From positions 1-53,869 of the forward strand of contig NZ_AUMQ01000040.1 of NCBI RefSeq assembly GCF_000430765.1: 53,869 nt of DNA, given 5' to 3'. The notes beneath the pieces were generated by a model that saw nothing but the letters and a program-made list of their open reading frames with translations, made no database searches and was not told where the DNA came from. The position numbers were made by a program, and so were the translations under genes. Source of the stretch: Peribacillus kribbensis DSM 17871 (GTDB lineage: Bacteria; Bacillota; Bacilli; Bacillales; DSM-1321). This document shows, piece by piece, positions 11,734 to 35,026 of the stretch (positions are counted from its first letter, which is position 1; every line of letters starts with the position of its first letter).

Positions 11734-13122
11734 CTAGACTTTAATATATTCTAGATATATGTATTTTTTTTGGCCTCCATGGTCCACCGGCTCTCTTCCC
11801 GATTTTTTCAATCCCGGAATCCAGAGGATCTCTCCGGCTGAATCGATGATGACAGGCCAAGTATTGCGCTCATCCATAGGAATCTTTTCATTGATAAAGA
11901 TATCTTTCACTTTTTTAGATCCCGTAAGACCTTTAAGGTTCATTCTATCTCCCGCTTCCCTGGTCCTTGCTGCAAGCATGATTCCTTCTTCAGCTTCGAG
12001 TACAAAAGTATCATTTCCTTTTTTCTCCGGAATAACCGGGCAGAAGGATGCTTTTATCTTGCACCCATTGGGAAGGGTGCTCTCTCCCGGAATGTTCAAT
12101 TCGAGGTAATAATTCTTAGGTTTTGTATGATTGTAGGAAAAAATACAACTATCATAAGATTTTTTTACCAGAAGTCCACTCGGAAAATGCAGTTCGGCTG
12201 AGGGATGGGGGTTATCAAAAAGATCCCTTAGCTGGGTGAGATGCTTAGCGTTTAAATCGCTCTGCTCCCCGCCGTAAAGATAGTTTAATATTAGTTGAAT
12301 GGCTCTCCTTTGTAAAGAATTAGGCATTTCTAAAAGAGCCTTTATCCGTATGGAGGATTCTCTATTTGAACGCTTAATCCAGATGCTGTCCATCCTGGAG
12401 GCGGCAAGGTCCTGAAGATAGGATTCATCCTCTCTTATTTCCTCGCTGAACCTTTGAAAATGCTCATGTGCTTTTATGTTTTCCCTTTTTAGAAAAGGCA
12501 AAACTCTTAATCTGAATCGATTTCTACTGTATGCTTCCTTTTGGTTGCTTGGATCCAGCCTTGGCTTAAGGCCCCATCTCCGGCAGTAATCCCAGATATC
12601 CTCTTTTTCAGCCCCCAAAAACGGCCTGATAATCATGGAATCCCCAAACTTCCGGGCAATTGGGATTCCGGCTCTCGCCGCTCCTGCTGCTCCCCTTGTT
12701 AATCTCATCAGGATGGTTTCAATCTGGTCATCCCCGTGGTGTCCGAGAGCGAGCTTGCGAATGCTGTGCCTTTCCATCACTTCCTGGTAGAAGCTGTACC
12801 TAAGTTTACGTGCTGCAACCTGAGAGCTTTCTCCGGTTTCTTTCATATAGCCCGCTGCATCCAGCCGGATTCCTTCAAATGGTATTCCGAGCTCCTTGCA
12901 AAAACCTTCAACAAAAAGCAGGTCTTCATAAGATTCCTCTCCCCGGAACATATGGTCTACATGAATTGCAGTCAATTCGAGTGAGAATTGGTGCTTAATT
13001 GAATAAAGAAAATGGAGAAGCGCTAAAGAATCTGGTCCGCCAGATACTCCTGCCGCCAGCTTTTCACCTGGTTCCAGGAGATGATGTCTTTTTATAAATT
13101 CTAAAGCTTTCGTTTCCAGCAT
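11734..13122 (-). CDS. tilS: tRNA(Ile)-lysidine synthetase
   Basis: Modifies C34 of tRNA-Ile(CAU) to lysidine, changing its identity from Met to Ile; essential. The PP-loop SGGPDS is at residues 27-32, HVDHMFRG lies near residue 67 and [17 protein letters not shown] near residue 125; the C-terminal substrate-binding domain ends in [11 protein letters not shown] place the start at the ATG giving MLETKALEF (462 residues), preceded by AAAAGGA at 8 bases; the longest open frame begins 17 codons earlier at 13173 without a good site. Confidence 0.94.
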
Positions 13123-27931: not shown

Positions 27932-28145
27932 GTCCCCCTTTCCTTCAGTGTTTCTTTTTAGAAAACTAGTTTTTGAATGTATGTTAATGCTGCGGATTCC
28001 CTCCGCCTAAATTTACTTTTTAGTTATTTAATAAGTTATGCATCTCTGAATGAACGGCTAACTCCTAAATATTTTGCAGAAAAGAGCCCACATTGCGGAA
28101 AAGGCCTTCCTCAATAATTAAGGGTTGGTGAAGGTACCGCCTTCA

Positions 28146-28238
28146 GCTTTTCAACAAGTTATATCTTTCAAAATTAGTATGTTATTCATTCATAATAAAA
28201 CATATTCTATCCGAAAAGCACCGTTCTCCGCTTTTGAG
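28146..28238. repeat. 93-bp direct repeat, left copy (repeat element A)
   Basis: Identical to 28341-28433 except for one base (T at 28185, C at 28380). It begins GCTTTTC and contains the matching GAAAAGC at 28213-28219, so it can fold on itself; it ends with ACCGTTCTCCGCTTTTGAG. The two copies are 195 bp apart start to start and flank the hairpin core. Confidence 0.95.
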
Positions 28239-28340
28239 GCATCCAGCTCCGAACTGACATCCTCGAGTCATAAGCCAGGCTGTCCACGGGAAGGAAAAGC
28301 ACTTCCCATAGACACCCCGTCTTATGCTTGTCGGATGTCT
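28239..28340. repeat. Hairpin core of repeat element A
   Basis: A 102-bp segment between the two direct repeats. Nested inverted repeats: GACATCC (28256-28262) with GGATGTC (28333-28339), CATAAG (28269-28274) with CTTATG (28321-28326), and GGGAAG (28288-28293) with CTTCCC (28302-28307). A related core with changed but still paired sequence is at 33622-33703. No protein of its own is credible. Confidence 0.9.
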
Positions 28341-28433
28341 GCTTTTCAACAAGTTATATCTTTCAAAATTAGTATGTTACTCATTCATAATAAAACATAT
28401 TCTATCCGAAAAGCACCGTTCTCCGCTTTTGAG
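28341..28433. repeat. 93-bp direct repeat, right copy (repeat element A)
   Basis: Second copy of 28146-28238 with one difference. Its outer end runs into GAGATATAA and then the fin terminator, 9 bases away. The intergenic stretch 27932-28475 holds, besides this repeat, only AT-rich sequence upstream of mfd. Confidence 0.95.
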
Positions 28434-28442
28434 ATATAACAG

Positions 28443-28469
28443 AAAAATGCTTTGGATGGTCTCCAAAGC
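28443..28469 (-). terminator. fin intrinsic terminator
   Basis: Minus strand: GCTTTGGA, GACCA loop, TCCAAAGC, then ATTTTT. A perfect 8-bp stem 6 bases after the fin stop. Confidence 0.88.
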
Positions 28470-28475
28470 TTTTGT

Positions 28476-28706
28476 TTATTGGATTAGGAAGTCGTTTTGG
28501 TGGTTGGACGGATTTTTTTCGAATGCTTCCTGGCAGTCTTCGCATATGGAGGATACCTGATAGTCACCTGTTTGAGTGATGCTGATCATTTCCTGTCTTT
28601 CCTGGCTGGTCAGAGCATGAAATCCCAGTTTCATCGAATCTAAAACCGGTTCATCCAACATTCCAATGTCCGTTCCACAATGTCTGCACTTGTAATGATA
28701 CGCCAT
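28476..28706 (-). CDS. fin: Anti-sigma-F factor Fin
   Basis: Small zinc-ribbon protein (YabK) that displaces sigma-F and helps the switch to sigma-G in the forespore. The 76-residue sequence has CRHCGTDIG near the N-terminus and CEDCQEAF near residue 54, four Cys for one zinc. It lies between pth and mfd as in B. subtilis, followed by its own terminator. Upstream, CATACTA (28742-28748) with TGAATA 19 bases away (28768-28773) resembles a sigma-F/G promoter with a slightly long spacer, which would fit forespore expression. Confidence 0.94.
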   Translation of the reverse strand: MAYHYKCRHCGTDIGMLDEPVLDSMKLGFHALTSQERQEMISITQTGDYQVSSICEDCQEAFEKNPSNHQNDFLIQ

Positions 28707-28796
28707 CTTCTTCCCCCCGTTTTTCAGGTCAATCTACTTTGTAGTATGAACCTTTAGGACCGGGATTTATTCATGATTCCGGAAGAAGGATAAGAA

Positions 28797-29357
28797 TTAT
28801 TTGTTAAATTGATTCATTACTTGTAAAAAGTCATTGCTTAACCAATTTTCGCAAGCTTCTGCACTTCTTTCAACTACTTTGCTCATCTCCGCACGTTCTT
28901 CTGGAGAGAATTTGCCCAGCACGAAATTTGAAACAGAGTTTTTCTCGGATGGACGCCCAACTCCAATGCGGATCCGGTTAAATTCCTGGGTTCCAAGATG
29001 GGCAATGGTAGACTTTATCCCATTATGGCCGCCTGCGCTCCCCTTCTGCCTTAGTCTGATTTTTCCTGAAGGCAGATCGAGATCATCATAAATCACTACG
29101 ATATCCTTAGGTGCCAGCTTATAAAAATTCAGGACAGCAGAAATGGATTCCCCTGAGAGATTCATATACGTCATGGGTTTCAGAAGCAGGACCTTCTCCC
29201 CATTAACCGTACCCATTCCAAATAAACCTTTATGTTTAGCCTGGTCAAGTGGAATTCCCCATTTAGAGGACAGCTCGTCCACCACTTCAAATCCAATATT
29301 ATGTCTTGTTTGATCAAATTGTTTGCCAGGATTCCCAAGACCGATTATTACCTTCAT
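28797..29357 (-). CDS. pth: Peptidyl-tRNA hydrolase
   Basis: Releases tRNA from prematurely dropped peptidyl-tRNA (SpoVC in B. subtilis; essential). Catalytic residues: IIGLGNPGKQFDQTRHNIGF with His20, KPMTYMNLSG near residue 65, and VVIYDDLDLPSGKIRLRQKG with Asp93, broken here by region; GGHNGIKS near residue 110. The start is the ATG giving MKVIIGLGNPG (186 residues), with GGAG 8 bases upstream; a frame extending 30 codons further upstream has no support. The 399-base gap to ctc holds the ctc terminator and otherwise AT-rich sequence without a convincing promoter or gene. Confidence 0.96.
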   Translation of the reverse strand: MKVIIGLGNPGKQFDQTRHNIGFEVVDELSSKWGIPLDQAKHKGLFGMGTVNGEKVLLLKPMTYMNLSGESISAVLNFYKLAPKDIVVIYDDLDLPSGKIRLRQKGSAGGHNGIKSTIAHLGTQEFNRIRIGVGRPSEKNSVSNFVLGKFSPEERAEMSKVVERSAEACENWLSNDFLQVMNQFNK

Positions 29358-29677
29358 GTCCAACACTCCATTAGAATTAAAAAATATGCTTTTAAGCCTT
29401 TTAACTATCATCGTCATAGAATCCTTTTGATATTCGTTATAAAGCACTGCCTTTTCGTTTTTAAACTCTATAAAAAGAAATTAACAAAGTTCAGCCAGAA
29501 TAAAAAGGGCATGAAGACCTGTTCTGGATGAAGAACACTCTCTCCGCTATTATTTCTCCGAAGAATGGGAAATCCCCTTTTTAGATTAACTATTTTTTTC
29601 TTCGCTCCATTATATCTTACTTCTCGTAAAGAGACAGATTGTTTTGTCGCATATCCTGAAGCTGACATGGTACAAAA

Positions 29678-29717
29678 GAGCATCAGAAAAGGCGCAACCT
29701 TATAAAGGTCACGCCTT
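29678..29717 (-). terminator. ctc intrinsic terminator
   Basis: Minus strand: AAGGCGTGACCTT, TAT loop, AAGGTTGCGCCTT (13 bp with G:T pairs), then TTCTGATGCTCTTTT. The T-run is interrupted, so it is somewhat less certain than the others. Confidence 0.7.
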
Positions 29718-29756
29718 ATTATAGCCTATAAAGCACATATTGCCTTTTTTAATGCC

Positions 29757-30380
29757 TTATTCTGCAGCAGGTTCTTCCCCGGCTGCATCTCCGCCATCTG
29801 CTTCCCCTTCATCTGCAGGCTCAACCTGCTGTCTTGGCGGGAGGACTGAAGCAATTACTTCATCTTCTTCGTGGTTGATCAGGATATTTCCATAATTCTT
29901 CTTGATATCTCCTACATACAGCGTCTCGTTTATACCAAGCGGGGAGACGTCTGCTTCAATCGCTTCAGGAATATCATTGGGTTTGGCTGTGATCGATAAA
30001 TCATGGATGGCCTGCTGCAGCACGCCGCCCTCGGATTCTCCGGCTGGTGTGCCGGTTAAGTTTACACGCACCTGAGCATTAATCTCTGTAGACATATCGA
30101 TATATAAAAAGTCTGCATGAAGAATGGTATTTTTTAAGGAGTCTGTCTGATAATCTGTCAGCATAACATTTTGCGGACTTCCATCCACATTTAAAGATAT
30201 AATTCCATTTCTGCCGACTTCCTTGATCGTTTTGATGAGGTCTTTGCTATCTATCACAATGGACTTGCTTTCTTTATTTCTCCCATATACTACAGCGGGA
30301 ATTCCGCCATTTTGTCTTACAGAAGTCAAAAAAGAATTTTGGGACTCTTTACGTTCTCTGGCACTTAACATATTACTCAT
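29757..30380 (-). CDS. ctc: 50S ribosomal protein L25/general stress protein Ctc
   Basis: Binds 5S rRNA; in B. subtilis the long form Ctc replaces the plain L25 and is induced by stress. The N-terminal L25 domain covers residues 1-95 (GGIPAVVYGRNKES near residue 25, LHADFLYIDM near residue 90); a C-terminal beta domain follows, and the last 25 residues are an acidic Ala/Glu/Gly tail. At 207 residues it is a normal long form. AGGTGG precedes the ATG by 6 bases. An exact sigma-B promoter lies 43 bases upstream. Confidence 0.95.
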   Translation of the reverse strand: MSNMLSARERKESQNSFLTSVRQNGGIPAVVYGRNKESKSIVIDSKDLIKTIKEVGRNGIISLNVDGSPQNVMLTDYQTDSLKNTILHADFLYIDMSTEINAQVRVNLTGTPAGESEGGVLQQAIHDLSITAKPNDIPEAIEADVSPLGINETLYVGDIKKNYGNILINHEEDEVIASVLPPRQQVEPADEGEADGGDAAGEEPAAE

Positions 30381-30422
30381 GCTTAACCACCTTTATACGA
30401 TTATTTGGTCTCCTCTATCTTT

Positions 30423-30448
30423 TTTCCCTTTATCAGCTGCTTTTAAAC
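30423..30448 (-). promoter_or_regulatory. ctc promoter, sigma-B type
   Basis: Minus strand: -35 GTTTAA at 30443-30448, 14-bp spacer, -10 GGGAAA at 30423-30428. This is an exact match to the sigma-B pattern GTTTAA - 12/15 - GGGWAW. ctc is the classic sigma-B gene, so the general stress sigma factor is expected in this organism. Confidence 0.88.
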
Positions 30449-30543
30449 AAAAGGAACATTAGATATATCATGTTTTATTTTAGTCTACCTTTTAAATGGG
30501 ACTGCCGATATCACCCGATTGCAAAAACCTCACTTAAAAAACT

Positions 30544-30568
30544 AAAAGCCCGCCAAAAGGCGGGCTTT
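30544..30568 (-). terminator. prs intrinsic terminator
   Basis: Minus strand: AAAGCCCGCC, TTTT loop, GGCGGGCTTTT. A perfect GC-rich stem with T-run, 8 bases after the prs stop. It closes the spoVG-glmU-prs region and leaves ctc to its own promoter. Confidence 0.93.
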
Positions 30569-30575
30569 GTTTGAT

Positions 30576-31529
30576 TCAGTCAAAAAGAGTGCTGACTGAT
30601 TGTTCTTCGTGGACACGGATGATCGCTTCACCGATTAATGGTGCAACAGACAGTTCTACAATTTTACCGATTTTCTTTTCTTCTGCAAGGACAATGGAAT
30701 TTGTTATAACTAATTCCTTAATTCTAGAATTTTGGATTCTGTCAATGGCAGGTCCGGATAATACTGGATGGGTACAGCATGCATAGACTTCAGCAGCACC
30801 ATTTTCTACTAAAGCATTGGCAGCCAGGGTAATGGTACCGGCTGTATCAATGATGTCATCAATAAGGATGGCGGTTTTGCCTTCAATGTTACCGACAATG
30901 TTCATGACTTCCGCAACATTCGGTCTTGGTCGGCGCTTATCAATGATAGCAATAGGAGCTTTCAGGCGGTCTGCCATCTTTCTCGCACGGGTTACTCCGC
31001 CATGATCTGGAGATACAATCACGATATCCTTCAGATTTTTGGTTTTGAAATAATCGGCAAGGATAGGTACACCCATAAGGTGGTCAATAAGAATATCAAA
31101 AAATCCCTGAATCTGCGGTGCGTGCAGATCCAGTGTAATAACACGGTCTGCCCCAGCTGTTTCAAGCAGATTAGCTACAAGCTTGGCAGTAATCGGTTCA
31201 CGGGCGCGCGCTTTACGGTCCTGACGGGCATAGCCGTAGTAAGGCATTACAATATTCACCGTTTTAGCGGATGCGCGCCTTAAGGCATCAATCATAATCA
31301 ATAGTTCCATTAGGTGTTCATTGACCGGGGCGCTTGTTGACTGGATTACAAATACGTCACAGCCGCGGATACTTTCTTCGATGTTAATCTGAATTTCTCC
31401 ATCACTGAAATGTGTAACTGAACATTTCCCAAGCTCTACGCCTATAAATTTGGCAATTTCCTCCGCCAATCCCCTGTTGGAATTGAGTGTGAAGACTTTC
31501 ATCTTTGGGTCAAGGTACTGATTAGACAT
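30576..31529 (-). CDS. prs: Ribose-phosphate pyrophosphokinase
   Basis: Makes PRPP from ribose-5-phosphate and ATP, feeding purine, pyrimidine, His and Trp synthesis. Motifs: [17 protein letters not shown] near residue 46, [11 protein letters not shown] (about 96-106), [12 protein letters not shown] near residue 130 and the PRPP loop [12 protein letters not shown] near residue 216. 317 residues, the standard length. It follows glmU after 15 bases, a conserved pair. PurR, encoded a few genes upstream, senses its product. Confidence 0.97.
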
Positions 31530-31544
31530 GCTGAACCTCCAGTG

Positions 31545-32915
31545 TTATTTGTTTTTTAACTTTTGAACATAATTCTCTTTATTGACTTGGCGTGCACGGG
31601 CAATGGATAGTGCCTGTCCAGGAACATTTTCAGTAATGGTAGATCCCGCTGCTATATAGGCGCCCTTTCCTACAGTAACTGGTGCTACAAGGTTAGAATT
31701 ACAGCCTACAAAAACCCCATCTTCTATTTTAGTCAGGAATTTATTTTTTCCGTCATAATTAACAGTGATTGAGCCGCAGCCGATATTTACGTCACTTCCT
31801 ACTTCAGCATCTCCGATATAACTCAAATGGGATGCTTTGCTTCCCTTTCCAAAGTCCGCTTTTTTGATTTCAACAAAGTTTCCGATTTTCACTTCGTCAT
31901 GAATAGTAGAAAGCGGGCGAATATGGGCAAAAGGACCAATATTAACATCTGAGCCGATGCTGCTGTCATGTGCCACCGACTGGCGGATAACTGTATTATT
32001 CCCAACAGAACAGTCTTTCATTTCTGTATTCGGGCCAATCGTACAGTCAGAACCGATTTCTGTTTTGCCGGATAGGATCGTACCTGGATAAAGGATCGTA
32101 TCCTGCCCAATCACAACATCAGGGGAAATATAAGTGTTGGCCGGATCGATGATGGTTACTCCATTTCGCATATGCGCTTCGTTGATGCGCACTTTCATGG
32201 AGGCTTCCGCCTGTGCAAGGGCTACCCGGTCATTCACACCCAAAGTTTCAGAAAAATCATCTGTCTGATAGGCTGTTACAATTTCACCGTTCTTTTTAAG
32301 GATTTCAATCACATCAGGAAGATAGTATTCTCCCTGGACATTTTCATTTGAGACATTCTTTAAAGCCTCGAACAAAGCTTTATTATCAAAGCAGTAGGTG
32401 CCTGTATTGATTTCTTTTACCAGACGCTCCTCTTCAGAAGCATCTTTATGCTCCACAATCTTTTCGACAAATCCTTCTTCATTGCGGATGATTCTTCCAT
32501 AGCCCGCAGGTGAATCTGTATAAGCCGTAAGGATGGTAGCCTTTGCATGGTTTTCCTCATGCTGCTTTATCAGCAGATCCATGGTTTCGGATTTGATCAA
32601 AGGAGTATCCCCGCAGATAACAAGGGTAGTTCCTTCTTTTCCTGCCAAAAGCTCCTCTGCCTGCATAACAGCATGCGCTGTGCCGAGCTGTTCGGCCTGC
32701 AGGGCATAGCCGGTCCGTTCTCCCAGATGGGATTTTACAAGTTCAGCGCCGTGACCGATGATCGTTACGGTTTCTTTTATCTCAAGCTTTGAAATTTCAT
32801 CTAGTACATGCTCGACCATTGGCTTTCCGCAGACAGGATGCAACACCTTATATAATTTGGATTTCATTCTGGTTCCCTGTCCGGCAGCCAAAATAACTGC
32901 ATAGCGATTATTCAT
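31545..32915 (-). CDS. glmU: Bifunctional UDP-N-acetylglucosamine pyrophosphorylase/glucosamine-1-phosphate acetyltransferase
   Basis: Makes UDP-GlcNAc for peptidoglycan and teichoic acid synthesis. The N-terminal uridyltransferase carries [11 protein letters not shown] (residues 9-19) and GDTPLIK near residue 102; the C-terminal half is a left-handed beta-helix of hexapeptide repeats ([38 protein letters not shown]). At 456 residues it matches GcaD/GlmU of B. subtilis. The gap to spoVG (32916-33153) holds the spoVG terminator. Confidence 0.97.
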
Positions 32916-33083
32916 AATAGGCCTCCGTTTACCTTTTTATCCATTACGAATATATCTCAAAAACAGACTGTTTTCAAGGATACAACCTAAAGTGCCTATA
33001 TTTTTCAATTCAGGGGAAATTATTCAAGGACATGAGATAGAAGGAGAAACACGTTTAAGATGAGGAATTCGTGGTAAATCACA

Positions 33084-33118
33084 TAATAAAAGAGCCTTAC
33101 TTAGGAAGCAGGCTCTTG
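33084..33118 (-). terminator. spoVG intrinsic terminator
   Basis: Minus strand: AAGAGCCT, GCTTCCTAAGTA, AGGCTCTT, then TTATT. An 8-bp stem with a 12-base loop, about 36 bases past the spoVG stop. The T-run is short, so read-through to glmU is possible. Confidence 0.75.
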
Positions 33119-33153
33119 ATGCGGTAATATACTGTTTTTATCTGCCTTTTAGA

Positions 33154-33447
33154 TTAGGAAGCTCCTGCTTCTTCAAGTTCAACAACTTCCATTTCTCCTA
33201 GACGATGATATTCAGCTAGAACAGCATCCTGGATTTTACTGCGTGTAGAAGAGTTGATTGGATGGGCAATGTCCCGGAATTCTCCATCTGGAGTACGCTT
33301 GCTAGGCATGGCAACGAATAAGCCATTATTTCCGTCAATCACACGGATATCGTGAATGACAAACTCATTGTCCAGTGTAATTGATGCAATCGCTCTCATT
33401 CTGCCATCGGTAGTCACTCTTCGTAATCTTACGTCTGTTACTTCCAT
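33154..33447 (-). CDS. spoVG: RNA/DNA-binding regulator SpoVG
   Basis: A 97-residue global regulator with roles in septation and cortex. The whole family signature is present: [44 protein letters not shown] (about residues 30-51) and [11 protein letters not shown]. It has a perfect-looking sigma-H promoter, as in B. subtilis, where AbrB also represses it; the AT-rich tract just upstream of the -35 is where AbrB would bind. The upstream gap also holds repeat element B. Confidence 0.96.
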
Positions 33448-33499
33448 TATCTACACCACCTAAAAGTTTATTGGCAAGCTTTTTGGGCTTGTACTACTA

Positions 33500-33526
33500 A
33501 TTCCACATCAAGAGTGATATTCCTTC
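33500..33526 (-). promoter_or_regulatory. spoVG promoter, sigma-H type
   Basis: Minus strand: -35 GAAGGAATA at 33518-33526 and -10 GTGGAAT at 33500-33506, 11 bp apart. Both match the sigma-H pattern RNAGGAWWW and RNNGAAT. A 20-base AT-rich tract lies directly upstream, like the AbrB target at B. subtilis spoVG. Confidence 0.85.
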
Positions 33527-33587
33527 TTTTTAATTAATATTTTTTTGAAAAAATAGGTCTATTTGGATAATATCTGGGATTTAAGGT

Positions 33588-33792
33588 CGTTCTCCGCTTT
33601 TTTAACTGCCAGCTTCGAACTGACACCTTCGGTCATAAGCCAATCGCCATCAAAAGGCAAAAACGGCCTTTCGCTGCCGCTTGTCTTATGCCTGTCAGGT
33701 GTCTGCCTTCTAATCTGTTTCTCATTTTTTACTATTATCCTACATCATCCTGCCTCGTATCAGTAAAAGTTTGAAGGCACCGTTCTCCGCTT
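33588..33792. repeat. Hairpin repeat element B (diverged copy of element A)
   Basis: Same order of parts as element A: CGTTCTCCGCTTTT, then CAGCTTCGAACTGAC, then paired arms GACACCT (33622-33628) and AGGTGTC (33697-33703), CATAAG and CTTATG, inner AAAGGC and GCCTTT, then TGCCTTC (33704-33710) paired with GAAGGCA (33773-33779), and finally ACCGTTCTCCGCTT with AGATATAA. Arms differ from copy A but remain paired. It lies directly behind the ridA terminator. Confidence 0.88.
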
Positions 33793-33798
33793 AGATAT

Positions 33799-33827
33799 AA
33801 AAAACGCCCGTTATTATTTAACGAGCG
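33799..33827 (-). terminator. ridA intrinsic terminator
   Basis: Minus strand: CGCTCGTT, AAATAAT loop, AACGGGCG, then TTTTTT. The ridA stop codon lies inside the loop. Repeat element B begins 6 bases further on. Confidence 0.85.
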
Positions 33828-34191
33828 CTACAACTTCGATTTCTACCAATACATCTTTAGGAAGCCTTGCTACCTCTACACAGGAGCGGGCTGGCTTGTG
33901 AGTGCTGAAATATTCTCCGTATACTTCATTCACTGCCGCAAACTCATTCATATCCTTGATAAAAACAGTCGCCTTAACGACAGATTCTAGTGATGCCCCT
34001 GCTTCTTTCAGGACAGCCTGCAGATTTTTGAATACCTGGTGGGTCTGTTTCTTTACATCTCCAGTTACCAGTTCACCCTCGGCGGTCAATGGAATTTGTC
34101 CTGAACTAAAAAATAGATTATTCACTACGATTCCCTGTGAATATGGCCCGATCGCTGCAGGTGCTTCATTTGTGTGAACTATTTTCATAAA
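33814..34191 (-). CDS. ridA: 2-iminobutanoate/2-iminopropanoate deaminase
   Basis: RidA (YabJ) hydrolyses reactive enamine/imine intermediates to keto acids, protecting PLP enzymes. The family motifs are [15 protein letters not shown] near residue 10, SSGQIPL near residue 30 and the active-site Arg in [14 protein letters not shown] near residue 103. The start is the ATG giving [10 protein letters not shown] (125 residues), with AGGGGG 8 bases upstream; it overlaps the end of purR by 26 bases. In B. subtilis it is co-transcribed with purR. Confidence 0.95.
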
Positions 34192-35026
34192 GATTTCCCC
34201 CTTGTTCAAATCGTTCAAAGTAATTACCTGGTTTGACATTGATTTTTCTGGCTTTGGTATCTACATCCGTTAATTTTATCAAGGAAAGATAGTCATTTAC
34301 CAGTCTGTCCTCTGCATATTCGGATTCTACCAGGACAGATATTCCGGCTACGGATGCATTGAATTCATCTAAGAGGCTGATCATTCCATTTATGGTCCCG
34401 CCTGCCTTCATAAAGTCATCCACAATGAGGACGTTGGACCCCTGGGCGAGGCTTCGTTTTGACAATCCCATTGTTTGGATTCTTTTTGAAGAGCCAGAGA
34501 CATAATTAATGCTGACGGTAGATCCTTCTGTTACCTTGCTGTCGCTCCTTACAATGACCACTGGTACATTTAGATAGCTGGCAGCGGCATATGCAATGGG
34601 AATTCCCTTAGTTGCGACTGTCATTACAATATCGATTGATTTATGGGCGTAGGCGGAGGCAATGGTCTTCCCTACCTTTTTTAGGACCTGCGGGTCACCA
34701 AGGATGTCGGTCATAAAAAGATATCCTCCCGGCAGGAGCCTCTCGGGATTGGCCACCAGCTCACACATTTCAGTAATAAACTGCCTTGTTTCAGACTCGC
34801 TGCTGCTGACGATATATTTAACGCCGCCTGCAGCTCCGGGTACAGTGACCAGCCTGCCGATCCCGCGATGTTCGAAGGTTTCTTTAATGATGGTTAAATC
34901 TTCACTGATTGAGGACTTAGCCGATCCATATCTTTCCGCAAAAAATGTCAGTGGGACAAGCTGGAACGGATGGTCGAGCAAATAGTGAGTCATATCAACT
35001 AATCTTTCGCTCCGGCGAAATTTCAA
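34166..35026 (-). CDS. purR: Purine operon repressor PurR (PRPP-responsive)
   Basis: Represses purine genes at PurBoxes and is released by PRPP. A winged helix at residues 1-72 ([11 protein letters not shown] near residue 36) precedes a phosphoribosyltransferase-like domain with [13 protein letters not shown] near residue 200, the PRPP loop. I place the start at TTG, giving [11 protein letters not shown], with GAGGTG 6 bases upstream; a GTG three codons earlier overlaps that site. A 10-of-13 PurBox-like AACATTCGCTTTT (minus strand, 35043-35055) lies just upstream and could serve autorepression. Confidence 0.96.

Follow-up and report, generated by a model that had tools for sequence, protein, structure and literature searches.

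A folded intergenic repeat between yabJ- and spoVG-like genes of Peribacillus kribbensis, probably a copy of a mobile REP/MITE-like family found across its order

Introduction

The window analysed here, a stretch of 53,869 nucleotides from Peribacillus kribbensis DSM 17871, contains two hairpin-rich elements, A and B, both of which lie in gaps between co-oriented genes and in the same orientation as these genes (element B in the yabJ-spoVG gap, element A in the fin-mfd gap). The original prediction, made from these two copies, held that the arms of element B (placed at 33588-33792) had changed in pairs while the fold was kept, and put the element forward as an undescribed structured element. 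The locus raises the question of what element B is, a single structured RNA or one copy of something more widespread, and of why its fold is kept.

Results

Element B and the fold of the unit

Element B comprises one full unit with three helical parts (P1, P2 and P3), which is followed by the start of another; coordinates, strand, feature and evidence are as follows.

33154-33447, minus strand: downstream co-oriented gene, presumably SpoVG-like (name as in the original prediction; ORF, whose MEVTDV-type start served as the anchor for locus comparison)
33588-33600, minus strand: truncated start of a second unit, AAAGCGGAGAACG (13 nt), separated from element B by an 8-nt spacer
33609-33793, minus strand: element B, one full structured unit (R1 model match, 156.7 bits, E 1.1e-37, model positions 1-186 of 186)
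33611-33620, minus strand: P1 3' arm, GTTC-GAA-GCT (sequence; pairing and covariation)
33622-33628, minus strand: P3 outer 3' arm, AGGTGTC (sequence and pairing)
33634-33639, minus strand: P3 middle 3' arm, CTTATG (sequence and pairing)
33653-33658, minus strand: P3 inner 3' arm, GCCTTT (sequence, pairing, covariation)
33666-33671, minus strand: P3 inner 5' arm, AAAGGC (sequence, pairing, covariation)
33685-33690, minus strand: P3 middle 5' arm, CATAAG, almost invariant (sequence and pairing)
33697-33703, minus strand: P3 outer 5' arm, GACACCT (sequence and pairing)
33704-33710, minus strand: P2 3' arm, GAAGGCA (sequence, pairing, covariation)
33711-33772, minus strand: P2 loop, AT-rich and poorly conserved (in other copies, units compared at matched loci are 0.33-0.55 identical here)
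33773-33779, minus strand: P2 5' arm, TGCCTTC (sequence, pairing, covariation)
33782-33791, minus strand: P1 5' arm, AGC-GGA-GAAC, with the GNA internal loop (sequence; pairing and covariation)
33799-33827, minus strand: intrinsic terminator-like hairpin of the upstream gene (sequence, by eye)
33814-34239, minus strand: upstream co-oriented gene, presumably YabJ/RidA-like (ORF; matches in 37 of 41 genomes searched)

All four arm pairs that the original prediction had named in element B were confirmed at their positions by a check of the sequence, while the closing stem P1 (33782-33791 with 33611-33620) had been overlooked; the interval 33588-33792 does contain the hairpin element, and resolves into one minus-strand unit plus the truncated start of a second. 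Element A, the second full unit in the window, carries different arm sequences, as had been said, and is likewise followed by a truncated unit:

28146-28234, minus strand: truncated second unit at element A, P1 5' arm and P2 (nhmmer, model positions 1-88)
28243-28429, minus strand: element A, full unit (R1 model match, 188.3 bits, E 1.1e-45)

This truncated copy forms a 96-nt direct repeat (98% identical) and is covered by a weak match to the R1 model at 28040-28234. The units in the window measure 185-187 nt, begin with (A)AAGCGG and end with AGCTGG, and both fold better than their dinucleotide shuffles, with z-scores of -5.84 for element A and -4.31 for element B and no shuffle out of 200 equalling either element.

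Stem P1 was placed unprompted by RNAalifold on 40 units, from which the R1 model (31 units, 45 pairs) was drawn. Among the units of this genome, GAAC or AAGC near the 5' end switches together with GTTC or GCTT near the 3' end, and P1 consists of these bases and the flanking AGC and GCT, broken by G-N-A opposite G-N-A (AGC-GNA-GAAC / GTTC-GNA-GCT). Because P1 closes both ends of the unit around P2 and P3, the unit is modelled as a three-way junction of P1, the hairpin P2 with its AT-rich loop, and the long hairpin P3. On either side of the P1 internal loop, 178 of 182 units retain the G and the A, with a variable middle base, and in other genera the GNA loops are kept in 63 of 65 short-form units on either side. 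Sheared G-A pairs are formed by RNA and by single-stranded DNA alike, and the kept G and A of this loop are consistent with such pairs. The GNA/GNA and GA...CGA loops are conserved across units, and a G-U pair occupies columns 115/158 in 130 of the 182 units.

Elements A and B both start directly after the upstream gene's terminator-like hairpin (33799-33827 for element B), so that their own transcription is doubtful, and element B would be transcribed only by read-through or from a promoter of its own. An end resembling GGGC-GTTTTTT was also seen behind the orthologous upstream gene in many of the relatives inspected.

Paired changes and covariation

In the first alignment to the R1 model, 93.1% of 1,386 cells were paired and 24 of the 45 pairs had changed on both sides, compared with 83.0% and 18.3 pairs in alignment shuffles, and on four of five measures none of the 500 shuffles reached the observed value; the fifth and less distinct measure, further pair types, gave 55 against 50.6 (7 of 500 as high), and structures slid along the same alignment paired at most 49.1% of cells. 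For the short form of the unit described below (R2 model; 19 units, 37 pairs), 93.4% of 694 cells were paired and 28 of 37 pairs had changed on both sides, with 0 of 500 shuffles as high on all five measures.

Covariation was further assessed with a home-made test resembling R-scape, in which a G statistic with APC was computed for all column pairs at least 4 apart on MAFFT alignments built without structure, and compared with 60 null alignments simulated along a FastTree tree, in which each column received its parsimony number of changes. After identity filtering (182 to 160 units of the window's clade; 75 to 65 short-form units), seven column pairs reached E<0.05 among the 160 units, all of them structure pairs (7 of 45), and the best ten of 17,766 column pairs all lay in the structure, the eleventh outside it. 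Among the 65 short-form units, which come from 48 loci and none from the window's genus, eight column pairs reached E<0.05, again all structure pairs (8 of 37), and the top twenty of 7,140 lay in the structure. No column pair outside the structure reached E<0.05 in either set. These E-values are approximate, since gene conversion between units violates the assumption of a tree. In this R-scape-like form, the covariation check proposed with the original prediction returned significant pairs in the structure only, and its central claim, paired changes with the fold kept, holds against a tree-based null.

Units from arrays with matched flanks were compared in 16 cases, for which 36 of the 45 pairs were counted and units within arrays were not paired one-to-one. 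Changes on both sides affected 0-10 pairs per comparison, broken pairs numbered 0-5 except for 8 in L165/L154, and the identity of the P2 loop was 0.33-0.55. The arms differ in pairs and the fold survives.

Copy number and distribution

The two copies of the original prediction proved to be members of a large family. The 12-mer AGCGGAGAACGG has 48 exact matches in the 5.05-Mb genome (2 for the reversed 12-mer as control), and the R1 model gives at least 116 matches at E<=0.01, at least 93 of them at E<=1e-10; these counts are lower bounds, as 150 of 3,902 first-look candidates were scored, and the weaker matches include fragments and opposite-strand matches on the same palindromes. Many units stand in tandem arrays with a period of about 193. 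Three units (L031, about 1966-2224 and about 12349-12600; L033, 1619-1862) carry an insert of about 65-70 nt (TAAAGAAGACTTGCTGATTGGCGAG...), which separates the outer helix of P3 from the middle one, and were excluded from the R1 model set, and several other model matches of 244-259 nt may contain the same insert.

R1 matches were found in 27 of 61 genomes (own genome included) and in 14 of 28 genera. Most loci fetched from other genera carry a short form of about 116 nt without P2, whose P1 reads AGC-GNA-AGCGCC / GGCGCT-GNA-GCT, among many other arm sequences; the extra hairpin P2 is present in units of the P. deserti clade. The R2 model of the short form matched 178 of 249 genomes sampled from the order (own genome included) and 75 of 106 genera. 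In a phylum-wide sample of 199 genomes, R2 was found in two of the three from the order (the own genome and G075) and in none of the 196 from outside it. Copies per genome in these multi-genome scans are lower bounds, at most 43 (R1) or 14 (R2) candidates having been scored in each. Plasmid records contained no match to the short form (E 1e-5) or to element B (E 1e-3).

Position relative to genes

The start is intact in 53 arrays, 11 of which are embedded in a MITE-like repeat (described below). A co-oriented ORF lies upstream of 23 of the remaining 42, and 15 of the 23 start at most 12 nt from the stop codon of that ORF. In a stricter set of 36 arrays, which omits arrays that are MITE-borne, without an intact start or next to masked bases and requires flanking ORFs of 100 aa on both sides (ORFs being called by length alone), 12 start within 12 nt of a co-oriented stop, whereas random placement and orientation in the same gaps gave a mean of 2.87 and as many in 0 of 20,000 trials. 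The mirror case, an array end within 12 nt of a convergent stop, occurred in 1 of 36. In other genera, 11 of 44 first units (three of the 44 being the same place taken twice: L085/L326, L089/L328 and L080/L331) lie at -1 to +6 nt from a co-oriented stop, and a convergent gene lies downstream of 23 of the 30 last units, with 2 ending within 12 nt of its stop. At L083 (1502-1617) and at G000:C10:25596-25781 a unit stands, in two genera, behind the stop of what is apparently the same gene, with the C-terminus GDVIHFRFNV and presumably YchF-like.

Occupied and empty sites, arrays and candidate enzymes

The R1 and R2 models were scanned over 59 loci of the flanking genes (30 yabJ-like, 29 fin-like; the gap of L258 has masked bases, and a shortened locus could hide a unit), and matched the window genome's own two loci (L236 and L266) and L244 of genome G002, and no other. 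The sites of elements A and B are thus unoccupied in the relatives scanned, except in G002 at the yabJ gene, and a conserved position upstream of homologous genes, as of a cis-regulatory leader, was not found at either site. In G002 the unit behind the yabJ-like gene lies inside a MITE-like repeat, in G001 the same repeat stands there without a unit, and in the window genome element B stands there without the repeat.

This second, palindromic repeat has ends like GGTTGATT...AATCAACC and a core GGTGAGCCTCC...GGGGTCTCACCTGTCCCGCT. It was seen in this genome (G000) at L031, L032, L197, L199, L200, L202, L223, L225, L227, L230 and L231, and in G001 and G002 at L237 and L244; it often bears a single unit, whose internal position hardly varies. 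Some P. deserti copies lack the unit, and L276 carries a similar repeat without a unit.

Unit numbers differ between species at four loci with matched flanks (5 vs 1, 5 vs 1, 3 vs 2 and 4 vs 2 detected units) and are equal at others (2 vs 2 at both L154/L165 and L041/L138). When the 4 nt upstream of each of 35 arrays were set against the array's first inter-unit spacer, 78 of the 140 positions agreed, compared with 50.3 (sd 4.8) for spacers of other arrays and 0 of 5,000 draws as high. This test ignores the two bases nearest the unit, which are mostly A, and flanks that are ends of other units were removed; with them, 41 arrays gave 99 of 164 against a null of 62.9. Such a likeness between upstream flank and spacer is what repeated target sites would give. 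Among the matched loci there was no clean case of a filled and an empty site with an exact target duplication, and the best candidate, G001/G002, is embedded in another repeat and could have arisen by recombination between repeats. The 3' ends of arrays are ragged, with truncated units, for which simple cut-and-paste does not account; precise 5' ends combined with ragged 3' ends would be in keeping with a rolling-circle (IS91-like) origin, although this is speculation.

A RAYT/IS200 partner was sought and rejected for this genome, with 0 matches to PF01797 (Y1) in G000 at E<=1e-5. Y1 is present in 22 of 27 genomes with R1 matches and 12 of 34 without, a comparison confounded by kinship and by R2 in some of the 34. 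A Y2 transposase had no match in this genome, nor in the control genomes, and PF00078 (reverse transcriptase) had 0 matches in G000, the control being positive in 3 of 14 known genomes. At L263 (G019), an IS200-type gene occupies the yabJ-spoVG gap in which the window genome has element B (Y1 match at G019:C3:35906-36262).

Discussion

What keeps the fold

The observations that units are dispersed and arrayed in tandem, that their presence varies between relatives and that they are enriched in the sense orientation behind stop codons lead us to regard element B as probably a copy of a non-autonomous mobile structured repeat, REP/MITE-like, which occurs across the order and whose fold is maintained. 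The strand on which the fold matters can be approached through the ratio of G-U to A-C mismatches, where the evidence is mixed. In the window form, parts of P3 favour a sense-strand fold (34:6 in the outer helix, 121:1 in columns 114-116 and 46:4 in columns 126-130), P2 does so weakly (14:8), and the CATAAG helix (5:8) and P1 (13:27) do not; these counts omit the poorly aligned columns 117-125, 129 and 131, whose inclusion adds 51 A-C cells at the single pair 129/144, probably through misalignment. In the short form the ratios are 47:6 in columns 39-43, 14:10 in columns 47-49, 25:11 in columns 53-58, 8:6 in P1, 3:2 in the outer helix of P3 and 5:7 in CATAAG.

An RNA element under selection, with the units acting as 3'-UTR hairpins or excised small RNAs (in mRNA stability, ribosome release or as a protein sponge) and mobility secondary, would explain why arrays are anchored in sense orientation behind stop codons and why G-U stands well above A-C in parts of P3 and in short-form columns 39-43; the fixed G-U pairs and the conserved GNA/GNA and GA...CGA loops are also compatible with it, and the REPs found in E. 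coli no more than 15 nt from a stop codon (PMC12306157) and the transcribed bcr copies of B. cereus (PMC3446304) offer reported precedents. It is nevertheless a possibility on the doubtful side, as the P1 mismatches do not favour the sense strand in either form and those of P2 do so weakly, 24 of the 36 arrays start elsewhere than at a stop codon, and element B itself follows the upstream gene's terminator-like hairpin. Selection on the fold could be dispensed with altogether if arm-to-arm copying at replication (quasipalindrome correction) mimicked compensation, and the whole-pair swaps with few or no G-U intermediates are of the kind that this process would leave (C-G 17 vs G-C 14 at columns 96/177; C-G 12 vs G-C 6 at short-form columns 23/103), as is the near-equality of G-U and A-C in short-form P1. 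Such copying should, however, erase the unpaired GNA/GNA loop and the G-U pair at 115/158, both of which persist, and the arms of P1 covary although they stand about 160 nt apart with two hairpins between them, which makes this explanation improbable. Least credible of all is a protein-binding or regulatory device particular to the pairs yabJ-spoVG and fin-mfd: both window copies do lie in such gaps, co-oriented with the genes, but in the other genomes scanned the models detected no unit beside these genes apart from that of G002 at yabJ, and units occur at dozens of unrelated sites.

Proposed mechanism

On our preferred reading, that of a mobile structured repeat, an enzyme would insert units beside short target sequences, which would then reappear between tandem units, and arrays would afterwards grow and shrink by tandem duplication. 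Such an enzyme would probably recognise a folded strand. The hairpin may be kept because mobility acts on it, probably in the form of single-stranded DNA, or because well-folded units alone are harmless or useful as 3'-UTR hairpins, or for both reasons. That the repeat often ends up in 3' UTRs is the best reading of its positions; copies landing there may be tolerated or used as hairpins, which, as is reported for E. coli REPs, would protect the 3' ends of mRNAs or influence ribosome release. The reported effect of REPs on translation and the transcription of B. cereus repeats are parallels for such a role, by analogy.

More tentatively, and in our judgement unlikely as a whole, the family could be a modular system in which a constant P1 frame (AGC-GNA ... 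GNA-GCT) transposes, inner folded modules (the CATAAG hairpin, Bacillaceae-1 RNA and others picked out by eye) are exchanged, and a putative enzyme places units sense-ward behind stop codons. If this were true, much of an order would carry swappable hairpin arrays as 3' UTRs. Other inner modules in a similar P1 frame were noted by eye at L084, L086 and L091, of the kind TGAAGCAAATAGG...CATCTTTTGCACA and GACAAGCGCTGG...GTGAAGCGACTCGAG. The family offers a large natural data set in which to ask if such folds persist because of their role in RNA or in DNA, and by what route repeats become anchored behind stop codons.

Comparison with known systems

REP elements are described as palindromes of 20-40 nt with GTAG or CGTC at one end and are thought to be mobile (PMC3733652), and E. 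coli REPs less than 16 nt from stop codons were reported to lower translation (PMC12306157). Like REP, BIME and REPIN sequences, the present units are intergenic palindromic repeats in many copies, clustered and in some cases near stop codons; unlike REPs they are 116-186 nt long, their ends lack the GTAG/CGTC tag and, unlike REPs with RAYT, they occur here in a genome without a Y1 transposase. Membership in REP (GTAG/CGTC) or REP-with-RAYT families was rejected on length, tag and cognate transposase alike.

The repeats bcr1-bcr18, of which 84 of 165 and 62 of 155 copies were transcribed in two B. cereus strains (PMC3446304), share with the present units the character of foldable intergenic repeats (40-51% of the B. 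cereus copies are found in transcripts), as do the bacterial MITEs RUP and NEMIS. The units differ from bcr repeats and MITEs in having no long terminal inverted repeats, in the covariation of P1 between units and in forming tandem arrays with different inner hairpins, the comparison with bcr1-bcr18 being one of published description. Examined for the features of a MITE, the unit has a short inverted repeat at its ends (the 7 pairs of P1) and target-like repeats that are significant in bulk, with no clean empty site. Bhal-1 and Bhal-2, intergenic stem-loop families of B. halodurans of 74-76 nt described without a known function (PMC2267715), are likewise Bacillus-type intergenic stem-loops of a different length, a comparison made by description.

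No Rfam family matched at the gathering threshold at element A or B (whole window scanned) or at short-form units (in the scanned loci), and at E<=10 nothing fell on either element over 28100-33850. An element with this fold occurs in 178 of the 249 genomes sampled from the order, yet the scans made matched it to no Rfam family. The partial texts returned by a literature search held no recognisable description of this repeat family under any name, and papers containing one of four sequence strings were, by title, not on Bacillus repeats. The original prediction of an undescribed structured element is therefore borne out as to structure and the absence of a name in these sources, and revised in that the element is a dispersed repeat family and not a single RNA locus; the outcome it had named against itself, a known palindromic mobile element, applies in so far as the family behaves like one, though no name for it was found.

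A named RNA that lies near units is Bacillaceae-1 (RF01690); according to PMC4333381 its discoverers doubted its strand, its reverse complement resembles a CsrA site, and strand and function are open. CsrA is present in this genome, but no CsrA-type hairpin loop was visible by eye in the unit, and a CsrA link was dropped; identity of the element with RF01690 was likewise rejected, the gathering score of 35 bits not being reached. Across the 36 distinct loci scanned, RF01690 occurs beside or among units at four places (L080, the same as L331; L082; L087; L330) and 0.9 kb from a unit at L327. The two differ in size and inner hairpins, and by eye Bacillaceae-1 RNA seems in some arrays to fill the same outer P1 frame. 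The repeat works like REP/MITE-type repeats yet falls outside both REP and RF01690 by the tests applied, and the family may supply a common frame for Bacillaceae-1 RNA.
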